Made by a program: the position numbers and the translations under genes
Assembly (NCBI RefSeq): GCF_009834785.1
Contig: NZ_WUYX01000071.1
Location: 62,001-126,000, forward strand
Direction: 5' to 3'
Length of the DNA: 64,000 bases
From: Natronorubrum halalkaliphilum
GTDB taxonomy: Archaea; Halobacteriota; Halobacteria; Halobacteriales; Natrialbaceae
The notes under the pieces: generated by a model
Told to the model about the DNA's origin: nothing
The model's database searches: none
What the model saw: the letters and a program-made list of their open reading frames with translations, nothing else
Shown here: in pieces, positions 1,885-35,430 of the stretch
Layout: each line of letters opens with the position of its first letter
Numbering within the stretch: the first letter of the stretch is position 1

Positions 1885-3756
1885 ATGGCTACCACGGAGA
1901 CGAAGGTGACCCGGTTGTTCGGTGGTCCGGGCAGCGGGAAGACGACTGCCCTGCTCGACCACGTCGAAGAAATTCTCGAGGAAGACGGCGTTACATTCCG
2001 GGATATCCTTGTCGTCTCGTACACACGAGCGGCTGCACAGGAGGTTCGCGAACGACTGGCCGAACGGCTCGACGAGAGCCCACGTGCACTGCAGGGCAAC
2101 GTCTGTACGATGCACGCGAAAGCCTACGAACTTCTGGATCTCTCTCGAAGCGACGTAATCGGCGAATCCGACAAGGAGGAGTTTTGCGAAGATTTCGGCA
2201 TCGAGTACGAAGACGAATACAGCGGTGCCGGCCGCCGGACCGCCCGATCGACGACGATCGGCAACAAGATCATCGCGACGAGTCAGTGGCTCCAGCGGAC
2301 CAGCCGCGAGGTTTCGGACTGGTACGACGTGCCGTTCCAGTGGGACGAAGAGGAGGTCCGTCTGCCACCCGAAATCGACCCCAACGCACAGGAAGGGAAC
2401 AAATACACGCCGACCTGGCCCTCCGACGACGATCGGATCGACGTCCCCGAAGCGATCCGTGCCTGGCGCAACTACAAGGGCGAGGAAGGCAAGATCGGGT
2501 TCGCGGACATGTTAGAGCGCGTGAAACAGCGCTCGCTGCTGCCGAGCGTCGATTATCTGGTGATCGACGAGTTTCAGGACATCACCACCCTTCAGTACGA
2601 CGTCTACGAGGAGTGGAAACCCCACATGAAACAGGTCCTGATCGCCGGCGACGACGACCAGGTCGTCTACTCCTGGCAAGGTGCTGACCCCGCACTCCTG
2701 CTCGACGAAGAAGTCGACGAGGACATTATTCTGCCGAACTCCTACCGACTGCCGTCGAACGTCCTCAACGCCGTCAACAAGGAGATTCGTCACATCGAGA
2801 CGCGCCAGGACAAGGACCTCAAACCGCGCAAGGAGGGCGGTGCCGTCGAGGCTCGAGCGAACGCGTCCATGCTCGACGTCGTCCGAAACGTCCGCCGAAC
2901 GCTCATCGAGAGCGACGGCACCGTCATGGTGTTGTTCCGAGCGCGGTATCAGATGTTCCAGTTCATCGACGAGTTCATCACCGAGGGCATTCCGTTCACG
3001 TCGCTGACCGACCAGCGGATGTGGACCGATCGACTCACCCAGTACGTCCGTGCCGTCGAGGCGATCGACGAGGGCGAGGACGTGACCGGCCTGCAAGCCC
3101 GGCGACTCGCCGATATGCTCCAGGAGTCGGCGTTCGGCACCAACGAGCGCGACGAACTGTTCGACGAGATCGACGAGCGCCAGGAGGAAGCTGGCATCGA
3201 GGACTTGGAGGACCTCATGATCCCGTCCGAAGTCGTCCAGGACCACGCGCCGTTCATGCCCGGTCCCGCGTCGGCGGGCGACATGGTCCGGAAAGTGACC
3301 AACTTCCAGAAGAAGAGCGTGCGGTCGTACTTCGCGATCGGCGAGTACCTCGAGATGGAGACCGACCGCGTCCGGGTCGGCACCATCCACTCCGCGAAGG
3401 GCCGCGAGGCCGACCACGTCATCGTCGGCACCGACCTCACCGAGAAGGTCGTCGAGCAGATGGTCGCGACCGTCGACGACCCCACGGACATCCCCGACTG
3501 CGAGGAGTTCACCAAGAGCTCCTCGCCCGTGCCCGTCCTGACCGACAACGAACGCCGCGTCTTCTACGTCGGCATGTCTCGGGCCCGCGAACGGTTGGTT
3601 CTGCTCGAGAACCTCGTCGACGGCGCGCCGACGCTCCCCATCGACGTCTTGCTCAACAACGAGCTTACCGACGCGAGCATGGAGGAACTGATCGAGGAGG
3701 CCCAGCAGCCACAGGACGCTGCCGACGGCGAAGAGGTCGAAGCCGAAGCGCCGTGA
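1885..3756 (+). CDS. UvrD/Rep-family superfamily 1 DNA helicase
   Basis: A 623-aa SF1A helicase with the standard ATP-driven translocase motifs: Walker A GGPGSGKTT (about residues 13-21), motif Ia SYTRAAAQEV, Walker B VIDEFQD (about 226-232), motif III GDDDQVVYSWQGADP, motif V HSAKGREADHVIV (about 501) and motif VI YVGMSRARERLVLLE. It is expected to unwind DNA in repair or replication restart. It lacks the long C-terminal nuclease domain of AddA/RecB and ends in an acidic tail. The stop codon overlaps the GTG start of the next gene by 4 nt, so the two are probably translationally coupled. The ATG at 1885 is the only Met just before the conserved N-terminal motif. Confidence 0.92.
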   Translation: MATTETKVTRLFGGPGSGKTTALLDHVEEILEEDGVTFRDILVVSYTRAAAQEVRERLAERLDESPRALQGNVCTMHAKAYELLDLSRSDVIGESDKEEFCEDFGIEYEDEYSGAGRRTARSTTIGNKIIATSQWLQRTSREVSDWYDVPFQWDEEEVRLPPEIDPNAQEGNKYTPTWPSDDDRIDVPEAIRAWRNYKGEEGKIGFADMLERVKQRSLLPSVDYLVIDEFQDITTLQYDVYEEWKPHMKQVLIAGDDDQVVYSWQGADPALLLDEEVDEDIILPNSYRLPSNVLNAVNKEIRHIETRQDKDLKPRKEGGAVEARANASMLDVVRNVRRTLIESDGTVMVLFRARYQMFQFIDEFITEGIPFTSLTDQRMWTDRLTQYVRAVEAIDEGEDVTGLQARRLADMLQESAFGTNERDELFDEIDERQEEAGIEDLEDLMIPSEVVQDHAPFMPGPASAGDMVRKVTNFQKKSVRSYFAIGEYLEMETDRVRVGTIHSAKGREADHVIVGTDLTEKVVEQMVATVDDPTDIPDCEEFTKSSSPVPVLTDNERRVFYVGMSRARERLVLLENLVDGAPTLPIDVLLNNELTDASMEELIEEAQQPQDAADGEEVEAEAP

Positions 3757-5021
3757 CCGGTGGCGATCCGACGGGCGGTGGCGGGGCTGATAGGGGTAGC
3801 GACGGTGGCGCCGATATCGATACCGACGACAGTGTCAGATCACACCTCAGGTCCACCATCAGCGAGGCGCTCGAGGCCCGCGACGCGGTGGCGTTCGTCC
3901 ACGCCGGATCCGAAGCCGATCCCGCAATCCGGTACTGTTGGTCCCGACGGGGCGCCGTCGCAATCGCGTTCGACGGTCAGGAGTGGCTCATCGATGCGGC
4001 TGCGAACGCATCGACCCACCCCGCAGAACGGCTCGCATCCCGATTGGCCGAACGTGTTGAATCGACGCTGGTACTGACGCCGGCACGGATTCCCCACGAC
4101 GCCGCACTGTATCTCGAGACCGCCGGCTTCGAACTCGCCTCGACGGACGTCATCGACGCCGCTCGAGCGACGAAAACGGCGACCGAATGCGAGCGAATCG
4201 CGGCCGTACAGGCCGCCGCCAGCGCCGGGATCCGCAGCGGGGCGTCGCTGCTCGCCGATGCGGTCGGCGACGACGGCCGACTCGTGGCCGACGGGCGGCC
4301 GGTGACTCCCGAGCGCCTTCGCACGGCGATCGACGAGGCCATCGTTTCAGCGGGTGCGTTTCCCGCGGGCAACACCGTCGTCAACCCCGATCCCGGACAT
4401 ACGCCATCGAGTCGCGATGCTGGCGACGACACTGGCACTGAGATCGGTAAGGAAAACGAGAGCGAGCGCGAGAACGAAAACGAAAACGAAACCCGGACCG
4501 GGACCGGAACCGGAACCGAACCTACCGACCACAACGACAGCGCGCTTCGACCCGGCGAGCCGATCGTTCTCGAGGCGACACCCCGCGGCCCGGACGGCTA
4601 CTATGGCAGCCTCGTTCGGACGCTCGTCGTCGACGGCGACGGCGGCCGGGAGCGTCGGGCCCACGTCGGCGTCACGCAGTCGTTCCAGTCCGCACGGGCG
4701 ATGCTGACGGCGGATACGGAGTCCGTCACGAGGGTCGAAGCCGATCTCGAGGCCGAGGTCCGCGCCTTCGGATTCGGGGAGGGCGAGGACGTCCGGACGC
4801 GAGTCGCCGGCGTCGGTCTCGAACCCCGCGAACGGCCGCTCGAGGGCGGCGACCAAATCGAACCCGGAAGCGTCGTTCGGCTCGAGTCCGCGGTCCACGT
4901 CGCCGACGGGCAGTGGCTCCGGATCGCGGATCTCCTCGTCAAAGGCGAGACGGGGGAGCGACCCGAGCTATTCGAGGGGCCGTCGCGCTCGCTCGAGCCG
5001 ACGGCGTTGCTCGAGGACTGA
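3753..5021 (+). CDS. M24 (creatinase/aminopeptidase P) family protein, possibly inactive
   Basis: A 422-aa protein started from a GTG that overlaps the helicase stop (GTGA). The N-terminal third resembles the creatinase N-domain (AIRYCWSRRGAVAIAFDGQEWLID), followed by a pita-bread-like part (ATKTATECERIAAVQAAA, then GAFPAGNTVVNPD). Residues about 215-260 are a low-complexity insert rich in Glu/Asn and then Thr/Gly, encoded by hexanucleotide repeats at 4450-4530. The usual Asp/Asp/His/Glu/Glu metal ligands are only partly recognisable: GVGLEPRERP stands where a GHGxG-type His is expected. It may therefore bind rather than cleave peptides. The TGA shares its last base with an 81-bp palindromic repeat. 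Confidence 0.8.
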   Translation: MTGGDPTGGGGADRGSDGGADIDTDDSVRSHLRSTISEALEARDAVAFVHAGSEADPAIRYCWSRRGAVAIAFDGQEWLIDAAANASTHPAERLASRLAERVESTLVLTPARIPHDAALYLETAGFELASTDVIDAARATKTATECERIAAVQAAASAGIRSGASLLADAVGDDGRLVADGRPVTPERLRTAIDEAIVSAGAFPAGNTVVNPDPGHTPSSRDAGDDTGTEIGKENESERENENENETRTGTGTGTEPTDHNDSALRPGEPIVLEATPRGPDGYYGSLVRTLVVDGDGGRERRAHVGVTQSFQSARAMLTADTESVTRVEADLEAEVRAFGFGEGEDVRTRVAGVGLEPRERPLEGGDQIEPGSVVRLESAVHVADGQWLRIADLLVKGETGERPELFEGPSRSLEPTALLED

Positions 5022-5101
5022 TACGGTTTACTGTAGTCAATGACCGCCGATCACCAGAACGGGGTCGGCGATCGACGGTAACTAGTTACAGCAATCCGTA
5101 T
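5021..5101. repeat. 81-bp dispersed palindromic element, copy A
   Basis: Begins ATACGGTTTACTGTAGTCAA and ends GTTACAGCAATCCGTAT, so the termini are imperfect inverted repeats. An inner arm ACCGCCGATCACC pairs with GGCGATCGACGGT across an 11-nt G-rich loop. The first A is also the last base of the upstream TGA stop. It has the same subtype (AACTAGTTAC right arm, flanks ctg/ga) as the copy at 35349. Confidence 0.9.
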
Positions 5102-10036: not shown

Positions 10037-10040
10037 CCTC

Positions 10041-10122
10041 ATACGGTTTACTGTAGTCAATGACCGCCGATCACCGACCCCGTCCCTGGTGATCGGCGGT
10101 ACATAGTTACAGCAATCCGTAT
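10041..10122. repeat. 82-bp dispersed palindromic element, copy B (loop inverted)
   Basis: Starts ATACGGTTTACTGTAGTCAA and ends CAATCCGTAT. It has a perfect 13-bp inner arm, ACCGCCGATCACC with GGTGATCGGCGGT. Its 12-nt loop, GACCCCGTCCCT, is the reverse complement of the loop of copy D (AGGGACGGGGTC), although the arms have the same orientation. Flanks are ctc and cag. It lies 5 nt after the TAA of the preceding ORF. Confidence 0.92.
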
Positions 10123-10239
10123 CAGACGCGAAGCGACCTCGGTTCGACGCGGTGTCCGCGAGGACGATTGCGAGCACGTCGGCGTCGCCGCCAGCGCCGA
10201 CTCGGAATCCACAAAGGCCCCCCCATCCAACCGGCGGGT

Positions 10240-13955: not shown

Positions 13956-14037
13956 ATACTGTCTGTTCTCGGGCGTTTTCGATGGGGGCACAGGACGGCT
14001 TGCGGTCCCACCGGTACATCGGTACAGCAAACCGTAT
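13956..14037. repeat. 82-bp dispersed palindromic element, copy F (degraded)
   Basis: The length of 82 bp is identical to the good copies. The right end, GGTACAGCAAACCGTAT, matches the family; the left end (ATACTGTCTG) and the interior have diverged. It sits between the symporter remnant and the small zinc-ribbon gene. Confidence 0.6.
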
Positions 14038-14107
14038 CGGTGAATGGGATAGAAGAATCTACGGGTTTGGGTCCGGAGAATACGGCTTCCCGGTCCGGAA
14101 GGATCCA

Positions 14108-14532: not shown

Positions 14533-15239
14533 TTAGTTGGACGATTTTTCTTTGTCGTCGTCACCGTCGTCTTCTTCCTTCGCCTCCTTCTTCCGCTGCT
14601 CTTTCTTGTCTAGGTCATCGTCTTCGTCCGGATCGTCGGGGTCGTCTGGGTCGTCGGGGTCGTCCGGATCGTCGGGGTCGTCGGGGTCGTCGGGGTCGTC
14701 TGGGTCGTCGGGGTCGTCCGGATCGTCGGGGTCGTCGGGGTCGTCAGGGTCGTCCGGATCGTCGGGGTCGTCGGGGTCGTCAGGATCACCGTTCACTTCG
14801 CCGCAGAACCGGATATTGGAGATACCGGCCTGTTGGTCGCCTTCTCCGGCGGCCAGATCGGTCTCGATAGTATCTCCGGAATCCGGGTCCGAATAGTCTT
14901 CACAATCGCTTCCACCGTAGACACGGATATGGGCAACGGTGCAATCCTCATCGTTCACCTCCCAGTTGAATGAAAAGGCGTCACAGTCGTCACCCTCCCC
15001 ATCGGATTCGGTTACAGTTACGGTAATACACAGTCGCCTTCCACCTGCTCGACTGAACAGCCGTCGAACTCGTGTACCGCAATCAACTCGCCCTCGTCCG
15101 GACACTCATACTGGCCCGGTGGAACGCAGTCTCCGAACTCGTTGCCGTCATCTTGTACGCTGCTCAGACAGCCGCTTAGTCCTACGACTGCTACGCCGCT
15201 GGCAGCCAGCAACCGCCGTCTGTTGGTTGACTTCACCAT
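14533..15239 (-). pseudogene. Frameshifted Tat lipoprotein with Asp-Asp-Pro tandem tail
   Basis: Frame one (15239 to 15018) encodes MVKSTNRRRLLAASGVAVVG, then LSGC, a twin-Arg signal with lipobox, followed by a Cys-rich domain (FGDCVPPGQYECPDEGELIA, VEQVEGDC). It stops at 15018. A second frame continues the same kind of sequence (CITVTVTESDGEGDDCDAFS, FNWEVNDEDCTVAHIRVYGG) into about 18 repeats of Asp-Asp-Pro and a charged tail. Inserting one base near 15030 would join GDCV to ITVTVTESDG, so this looks like one exported lipoprotein gene broken by a one-base deletion; sequencing error or programmed shifting cannot be excluded. No known domain is recognised. Confidence 0.7.
14628..14787 (-). 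repeat. 9-bp coding tandem repeat (Asp-Asp-Pro)n
   Basis: About 18 copies of a GACGACCCC-like unit (seen as GGGGTCGTC on the plus strand). Variant bases (ccggat, tgggtc, aggatc) recur at longer intervals, giving a higher-order period consistent with slippage or unequal exchange. Confidence 0.9.
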
Positions 15240-16300: not shown

Positions 16301-16408
16301 GTTTGCGCTTGCGCTTGTGTTCGTGTCCGTGTTCAGGTTCACGTCCGCGTTCCCGTTTCCGTTCCCGTCCCGGTTCCCGCTCGCAGCCGAATCCGCGCCC
16401 GCATACTG

Positions 16409-16490
16409 ATACGGATTGCTGTAACTATGTACCGCCGTTAACCGACCCCGCCCCTGGTGATCGGCGGTCATTGACTACAGTAAACCGTAT
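16409..16490. repeat. 82-bp dispersed palindromic element, copy C (reverse orientation)
   Basis: Plus strand begins ATACGGATTGCTGTAACTAT and ends ACTACAGTAAACCGTAT, so its arms are inverted relative to copies A, B and D. Reverse-complemented, it has the loop AGGGGCGGGGTC, flanks ctc/cag and the ACATAGTTAC right arm shared with copy B. It lies about 60 bp downstream of the gene at 16553-17338. Confidence 0.92.
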
Positions 16491-29146: not shown

Positions 29147-29219
29147 TGCTGACGGTTGGGCCGGGCCGGCCATAAGGGCGACGACTCGGGTGAGAATCCG
29201 GACAGCAACTCGCATCCAC

Positions 29220-29300
29220 ATACGGTCTGCTGTAACGGTTTCCCGGCGTGACCCCCGCCGTCTCGCGGTTGTACCGGCAGTACCGGACAGCAGTCCGTAT
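29220..29300. repeat. 81-bp dispersed palindromic element, copy E (divergent)
   Basis: Ends are ATACGGTCTGCTGTAAC and CCGGACAGCAGTCCGTAT, an inverted terminal repeat matching the family. The interior is diverged (GGTTTCCCGGCG and related). Its last base (29300) is also the last base of the TAA stop of the minus-strand permease gene at 29300-30172. Confidence 0.8.
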
Positions 29301-30172
29301 TAGAGGTCGGACGCGTCGAATCGGTAGTAGCCGACGGCGAGCGGGACGACGAGCCACAGGGCCAGAATCGCGATACCGACCTCGGGGCTCGCGAAGAACG
29401 GCTCGGCTCCCGCGGCGTCGGCCTCGGCGCCGACACCCGTCTGTGCCGGCTCGGCACCGACCGTGTCCGCGAGGTCGGGCAACAGCGCGACGATCGTCGA
29501 GAAGTACGCCGAGGAGGGAGCGAGTTGCATCACGGGGAAGATCCAGTCGGGTATCGTCGTCGGGAACGAGAATCCCTCGACGACGTAGAGGATCCCCATC
29601 GGAACCACGTCCCAGAGAAGTTCGAAGACGACGAAGAAACCCAGCGAGAGCGTCGTCGCCCGCGAAGTCGAGCCCGTCGTCGCGGAGATGCTGACGATGA
29701 TAGCGGCGTAGATCGCGGCGAACGCCAGCGTGACCGCGACGAACGTCAGCGCGGCGACGGCGTCGAACGTGCCGAGCAGCAGCGAGCCGAAACCGAGTCC
29801 GACGACGAGGCCGACGCCGAGCCCGAACGTAAGCACGGCCGCCCGTCCCGCGACTTTCCCGGCCAGGACCTGGCTCCGGCTGGTCGGCAGGGAAAGCAGC
29901 AGTTTGATGCTCCCCAGTTCGCGCTCGCCCGCGAGTGACTTGTAGCAGACGACGATCGCTGCCAGCGGGACGAACAGGCCGGTGAGCCCGACGGTGAAAA
30001 AGAGCAACCCGCCGAAGGTCGCCCCTGCCGGTGAGCCGAACATCTCGGGGACCTCGACGTAGGCGTACGTCGACAGCAGCGAAACCAGGACGAAGACGCC
30101 GACGAGGGCCCACAGCGCCCGCGACTGGACCGCGTCCCGGAAGTCCTTCTTCGCGACGGTAAACCAGGTCAC
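29300..30172 (-). CDS. ABC-2 family transporter permease
   Basis: A 290-aa protein begun from a GTG that overlaps the stop of the ATPase gene (GTGA). It has six predicted membrane helices (for example ALWALVGVFVLVSLLSTYAY near the N-terminus and VGIAILALWLVVPLAVGYYR near the C-terminus) and the conserved cytosolic segment VVCYKSLAGERELGSIKLLL with SLPTSRSQVLAGKV, characteristic of NosY/ABC-2 permeases. Partner of the ATPase next door. The stop codon shares a base with a palindromic repeat. Confidence 0.9.
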   Translation of the reverse strand: MTWFTVAKKDFRDAVQSRALWALVGVFVLVSLLSTYAYVEVPEMFGSPAGATFGGLLFFTVGLTGLFVPLAAIVVCYKSLAGERELGSIKLLLSLPTSRSQVLAGKVAGRAAVLTFGLGVGLVVGLGFGSLLLGTFDAVAALTFVAVTLAFAAIYAAIIVSISATTGSTSRATTLSLGFFVVFELLWDVVPMGILYVVEGFSFPTTIPDWIFPVMQLAPSSAYFSTIVALLPDLADTVGAEPAQTGVGAEADAAGAEPFFASPEVGIAILALWLVVPLAVGYYRFDASDL

Positions 30173-34752: not shown

Positions 34753-35349
34753 ATGAAACTCCGTCAAAACGCCCGTCACTTCGCCTCTCGAAAAGCCCTC
34801 GAGACGCCGGTCGTCCGCTCGGTCGCCACCTCCGGGCTGGTCCGACTCCACACCAAGGTCTTCCTCGGAAAAGCCGATCCGGCTCACGCAGACGAGCGAA
34901 AAGCCCACCTCGATGCGCTCTTCGACGCGACGATCGACGCCTATCTGCGAGCGCTTCAGGACGGATACTCCGAGGCCGAAGCCCGTGAAATCACCCATGT
35001 GCAGGCCAATTTCGACTTCTACAACCACGGCTGGACCGAGATGATGGAGTTCCCGACCGACGAAGTCGAGGCCCACTACGATCGCTACCGCGAGTTCTTC
35101 GAGACGTGGGACATCACGATCGATGCGCCACTCGGACAGTTCGCACCCCCGGAAGGGCTCCCCGAAGCGCCGTCGACACCGGAGCGACTCGAGGATCCCG
35201 AGCACCCCCACGCCGAGGGTGGGTTCGCCGACGACGTCTACGTCGAAACCGACGACGGAGAGCTGGTCGTCGGGGGGCAAGACGAACCCGCCGACGCCGA
35301 TGTCTCGAAGGCGGTCGGCGTCAGCGACGACGATCTCGAGGACCGCTGA
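34753..35349 (+). CDS. DUF6149 family protein
   Basis: A 198-aa soluble protein: MKLRQNARHFASRKALETPV, LVRLHTKVFLGKADPAHADE, then AREITHVQANFDFYNHGWTE MMEFP, with a helical N-terminal two-thirds and a long acidic Pro-containing C-terminus. It matches the haloarchaeal DUF6149 family; function unknown. The ATG is 34 codons into the longer frame and is where the conserved N-terminus begins. The TGA stop shares its last base with the palindromic repeat that follows. Confidence 0.85.
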   Translation: MKLRQNARHFASRKALETPVVRSVATSGLVRLHTKVFLGKADPAHADERKAHLDALFDATIDAYLRALQDGYSEAEAREITHVQANFDFYNHGWTEMMEFPTDEVEAHYDRYREFFETWDITIDAPLGQFAPPEGLPEAPSTPERLEDPEHPHAEGGFADDVYVETDDGELVVGGQDEPADADVSKAVGVSDDDLEDR

Positions 35350-35430
35350 TACGGTTTCCTGTAGTCAATTACCGCCGATCACCAGGGACGGGGTCGGTGA
35401 TCGGCGGTAACTAGTTACAGCAATCCGTAT
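35349..35430. repeat. 82-bp dispersed palindromic element, copy D
   Basis: Begins ATACGGTTTCCTGTAGTCAA and ends CAGCAATCCGTAT. The inner arm ACCGCCGATCACC pairs with GGTGATCGGCGGT around the loop AGGGACGGGGTC. Its first A belongs to the TGA stop of the DUF6149 gene. Same subtype as copy A. Confidence 0.93.

Follow-up and report, generated by a model that had tools for sequence, protein, structure and literature searches.

The window, a 64-kb stretch from a 4.56-Mb draft genome (72 contigs) of the genus Natronorubrum, contains four near-palindromes of about 80 bp each, here termed copies A, B, C and D. Copy B, an 80-bp element running from TACGG to CCGTA, lies at 10042-10121 on the plus strand, and its 12-nt loop, GACCCCGTCCCT (10076-10087, plus strand), is inverted with respect to those of A, C and D. 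The loop is enclosed by a left inner arm, ACCGCCGATCACC (10063-10075, plus strand), and a right inner arm, GGTGATCGGCGGT (10088-10100, plus strand), and a target duplication (TSD), TCA, stands to the left (10039-10041) and to the right (10122-10124). Copy D (35350-35429, plus strand) carries the loop AGGGACGGGGTC at 35384-35395, and its left TSD, TGA at 35347-35349, is the stop codon of an open frame upstream. In copy A (5022-5100, plus strand) the loop is of 11 nt, AGAACGGGGTC (5056-5066), and takes the orientation that is in the minority in this genome; the TSD of this copy, TGA at 5019-5021, supplies the stop codon to an M24-peptidase-like ORF (3021-5021). Copy C lies on the minus strand (16410-16489) with TGA on both sides, and its loop, at 16444-16455 in plus-strand coordinates, is opposite to that of B. 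Read on the arm strand of B, it is a D-type loop with one substitution, AGGGGCGGGGTC, and C and B are identical at 42 of 42 outer-arm bases with their loops opposed.

The general layout is TACGG, outer arm, ACCGCCGATCACC, loop, GGTGATCGGCGGT, outer arm, CCGTA. The two outer arms are unlike, type 1 (...GTAGTCAAT) and type 2 (...GTAACTATGT), so that the element has a direction, and the loop represents a second, independent one. A sequence-only reading of this DNA had stated that the loop of B is the exact reverse complement of that of D, with the arms the same way round, and that the inner arms of B form a perfect 13-bp inverted repeat; both statements hold to the letter, and the 13-bp inner arms are likewise perfect in D and in most copies. 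That two aligned copies should differ by the exact reversal of a 12-mer is beyond chance, and such reversals recur. Folded as single-stranded DNA, the hairpins of B and D reach about -24 kcal/mol (z about -7.5), and A and C, whose stems contain mismatches, give weaker ones.

Two further palindromes of the window (29218-29305 and 13971-14040) have the same termini, TACGG(A/T)(C/T)TGCTGT, and different cores. Elements with such termini form a wider superfamily that is also found on plasmids of Haloarcula, Natrinema and Halostella. The window also contains, at 14608-14790, an array of about 20 nine-base repeats of the GTCGGGGTC type, probably an acidic coding repeat.

Loop orientation and arm sequence

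Copies in the same genome were found by sequence search, pattern search and profile search, and were then compared. A copy was assigned to class F when its loop runs as in B and to class R when it runs as in A, C and D; strongly deleted or arm-ambiguous copies were kept out of both classes. The 92 copies classified from the profile search divide into 63 F and 29 R, which departs from 1:1 (p=0.0005), and the core pattern alone gives 82 copies at 61:21. B had been presented as the odd copy of the window; on these counts it is the B-like loop that is the common form, and the D-like loop the rarer one. Both orientations are found in four related species as well, with F/R counts of 35/5 in N. thiooxidans (G008), 21/4 in N. 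bangense (G006), 24/3 in G007 and 12/5 in G002.

The loop takes either orientation with respect to the outer arms, and which one it takes is uncoupled from arm sequence. By arm-2 subtype, the F/R counts are 37/12 for ACTATGT, 12/2 for ACTAGTT and 4/4 for ACTATTT (p=0.17), and the arm-1 variants stand at 32/8 and 23/5 (p=1.0). The division of the outer arms into one subtype in A and D and another in B and C, as first described, is accurate for these four copies and incomplete for the family, in which a third subtype, AAATAGTTAC, exists. A tie between loop orientation and arm subtype, which had been named as the result that would speak against inversion, is ruled out by these per-subtype counts, all the common combinations of subtype and loop being found. 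Loop variants such as AGGGACGTGGTC and AGGGATGGGGTC are seen in either direction, and both orientations occur within four sets of copies identical over 42 outer-arm bases, one of which holds B and C. A third marker lies further out, at base 6 of each end, which in the window's genome is A at the end with arm 2 and T at the end with arm 1, and in most copies of G006 and G008 the reverse; each phase of this marker is found with each direction of the loop (71/31/34/10, p=0.42).

In a tree inferred from arm sequence alone, the 20 R copies call for at least 16 changes of orientation, no fewer than shuffled labels do (mean 14.7), and the AU test, with only 42 columns to go by, is compatible with a single R clade (p=0.26). 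The scatter of R copies on the arm tree may thus be taken as supporting rather than decisive evidence.

Orthologous insertion sites

Comparison of flanks between species yielded seven orthologous sites with readable elements. The insertions differ in orientation between species at three of the seven, where the loop, the loop together with the arms, or the whole element is inverted; at the other four (L142/L151, L153/L147, L246/L279 and L282/L225) the orientation is kept, which indicates that flips are infrequent.

At the first of the three, L186 (G006) and L219 (G008) occupy the same target between flanks about 91% identical. Their outer 17-mers agree at 31 of 34 positions in direct alignment, and their 52-bp interiors at 45 of 52 positions when one is inverted, against 29 of 52 when compared directly. 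Since rare interior variants, GGTGAGCGG and the loop AGAGACGGGATC, are common to both orientations, the same interior appears to have been turned rather than replaced. Outside the TSDs, no more than two outer positions favor a flip of the interior here over a flip of the whole element.

At a second site, L188 (G006) and L148:78-155 (G007) agree in their arms and have reversed loops, and L002 (G000), at the same site, has its arms swapped relative to the flanks. The loop-only case between G006 and G007 is a weak one, because the G007 loop has also been shortened by a deletion. At the third, the whole element is reversed between L146 (G002) and L252 (G006), for which independent insertion in opposite senses into the same target may serve as an alternative to inversion.

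Mobility and placement at stop codons

The elements end in TACGG and CCGTA as parts of imperfect terminal inverted repeats (TIRs) of about 21 bp, and both ends are recognisable in 197 copies from all species. Just outside the ends stands a direct repeat of 3 bp that reads T(C/G)A. Its left and right units agree in their middle base in 183 of 196 copies (p about 1e-39) and in the full triplet in 164 of 197, where shuffles give 78. Given this direct duplication of the target, we regard the elements, about 80 bp long, without coding capacity and dispersed in some 90 copies (92 classified) through the window's genome, as transposed, MITE-like units. None of the nine PF01609 (DDE_Tnp_1) matches in that genome has the ends of the element. 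A TIR search of plasmids found similar termini beside ordinary genes in Natrinema, Natrononativus and other haloarchaea, and no parent transposase.

One copy in Natrialba swarupiae (L166:7215-7300), the only one there, is nearly identical to the subfamily of the window's genome, which suggests horizontal transfer. Composite elements of about 190 bp occur at L092 (G000) and L182 (G006), where a palindrome of about 105 bp, TAGGGATCAG...CTGATCCCTA, is lodged in the outer arm, at a position that the two species share; the left flanks of the two composites are unrelated, and the target duplication is TCA.

Of 87 copies examined, about half (44 stop positions) have an ORF that stops exactly at the TSD, with the duplicated TGA as its stop codon. 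A TSD that can be read as a stop has 100 or more open codons before it in 63% of cases, compared with 26% at ordinary CTGAG sites (p about 1.6e-13). In the window, TGA duplications at sites of this type are found at 5019-5021, 16407-16409 and 35347-35349, and on plasmids of Natribaculum, Halomontanus and Haloarcula annotated coding sequences likewise end at the TGA of CTGATACGG.

Neither the direction of the loop (61:55, p=0.64) nor that of the arms (59:57) is biased with respect to the adjacent gene, and the even split of the loop speaks against a directional function relative to that gene. As loop direction is random with respect to genes and a flip leaves the hairpin stem unchanged, flips are probably near-neutral. 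One might still imagine that loops and interiors flip often in living cells, giving each genome some 90 shifting two-state switches, many of them right after stops, where orientation could affect the 3' ends of RNAs or the binding of proteins; we consider this a long shot.

Origin of the inversion

The inversion polymorphism is real and recurrent within a MITE-like family, and the process is of a known kind. The reading that we favor, and hold to be probable, is that in this Natronorubrum palindrome family the loop has been inverted in place, recurrently, by a template swap between the perfect 13-bp inner arms. A nascent strand would, in the course of replication or of fork repair, switch from one arm to its complement on the opposite strand, copy the spacer backwards and switch back, leaving the spacer reversed and the arms intact; recombination of a cruciform or hairpin would give the same product. 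The outer near-palindromic segments (CTGTA/TACAG and TACGG/CCGTA) might sometimes permit flips of larger interiors. Inversion across the inner arms, or resolution of a hairpin in the opposite sense, had been proposed for B from the start, and scoring loop against arm subtype over the whole genome and in the relatives bears the proposal out, since the two are uncoupled and copies with identical arms, as well as orthologous sites, differ in orientation; that the turn took place in situ and repeatedly, and by which molecular step, we infer.

The inner arms also changed together: their positions include 10 complementary double changes where about 3.5 double changes of any kind would be expected, an excess somewhat inflated by the relatedness of the copies. 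Such co-change is the homogenisation expected of template switching. The same process should have erased the outer mismatches as well, yet these persist, which counts against it.

The main rival is gene conversion, in which another copy pairs with the resident one in the inverted sense by way of the palindromic arms and replaces its interior, so that the flip arises between elements. It owes this rank to sites that hold copies of different species-typical subfamilies, as if a consensus particular to each species had been written over the residents (L246 of G006 and L279 of G002; L188 of G006 and L002 of G000), and the free shuffling of loop alleles and arm subtypes suits it too. A homology of 13-38 bp, however, is short for ordinary recombination, and the rare interior variants common to both orientations at L186/L219 argue for an in-place turn there. 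We think gene conversion a possible but unlikely source of the flips.

Considerably less credible is a single ancient inversion followed by amplification of both forms as two old transposing lineages, with parallel mutation mixing their markers. It would account for the unequal proportions in every species, for example 63:29 and 35:5, and the AU test leaves one R clade unrejected. Against it stand the identical outer arms with both loops, the fact that two arm markers and the outer-marker phase each occur in all four combinations with the loop, the random scatter on the tree and the differing orthologous sites.

Because the elements are mobile, as their TSDs attest, and palindromic, the inversion might instead be a by-product of transposition, a hairpin intermediate being resolved either way, or be the work of a recombinase. 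This we judge very improbable: orthologous insertions that have not moved differ in orientation, the two forms depart from a 1:1 ratio (p=0.0005), the searches described above turned up no transposase whose ends match, and the orientation of the loop is random with respect to genes. An artefact of assembly or sequencing at palindromes, suggested by the 72-contig draft state of the window's assembly, can practically be dismissed, for the complete N. bangense assembly (G006, chromosome of 3,079,186 bp) holds both orientations and the element is shorter than the usual read length.

Comparison with known systems

REP, REPIN and BIME sequences are high-copy extragenic palindromes with RAYT (Y1 HuH) transposases, some of them just after stop codons. 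The present family resembles them as a palindrome in high copy that in part follows stops directly, and is set apart by its clear 3-bp target duplication and different ends. Within the literature that we searched, we found no description of this Natronorubrum palindrome family.

In S. cerevisiae, template switching between the arms of inverted repeats gives spacer inversion, only with arms longer than 9 bp; it is reversible, and the arms are homogenised (PMC8604942). In our elements too a short spacer is exactly reversed between perfect, unchanged arms longer than 9 bp, recurrently, and three orthologous sites differ in orientation from one related genome to another. The yeast cases are ten events in single coding genes, with substitutions of 2-5 bp (PMC8604942), whereas here a 12-nt spacer is concerned over an archaeal mobile family of about 90 copies, with larger nested flips in addition. 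Stem-loop flip-flop is also common in plastomes, where, as in the present family, the orientation of the loop varies between species with the stem unchanged and changes several times on the tree, and where it is considered near-neutral, as it probably is here; the chloroplast inversions, however, are single plastid loci and not a dispersed mobile element (PMC6824564).

Among haloarchaeal elements, the MITEs of Haloquadratum and others are likewise short, non-coding and of many copies, with TIRs and target duplication (PMC3119063); unlike them, the Natronorubrum element is a nearly complete 80-bp palindrome with variable loop and arm orientation and no parent transposon identified. The small mobile repeats (SMR) of Haloquadratum, about 110 bp long, share prominent inverted repeats and the want of a known transposase, and are without target duplication (PMC3119063), so that the TSD rules out identity with SMR. 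PATEs, defined as IS605-related elements with neither terminal inverted repeats nor target duplication (PMC3119063), are ruled out by the TIRs and the TSD together.

Significance

The inversion is thus of a known type, found here to recur across one archaeal repeat family, while the papers that we found on inversion mediated by inverted repeats describe yeast and plastids. A caution to be drawn is that what looks like a cluster of substitutions in such a loop may be an inversion. With dozens of equivalent sites per genome, the rate of inversion would be measurable against arm length and spacer. Through asymmetric markers at three depths of the palindrome, the family provides a natural record of inversions mediated by inverted repeats in archaea; the finding also brings to light a mobile palindrome that inserts at stop codons.
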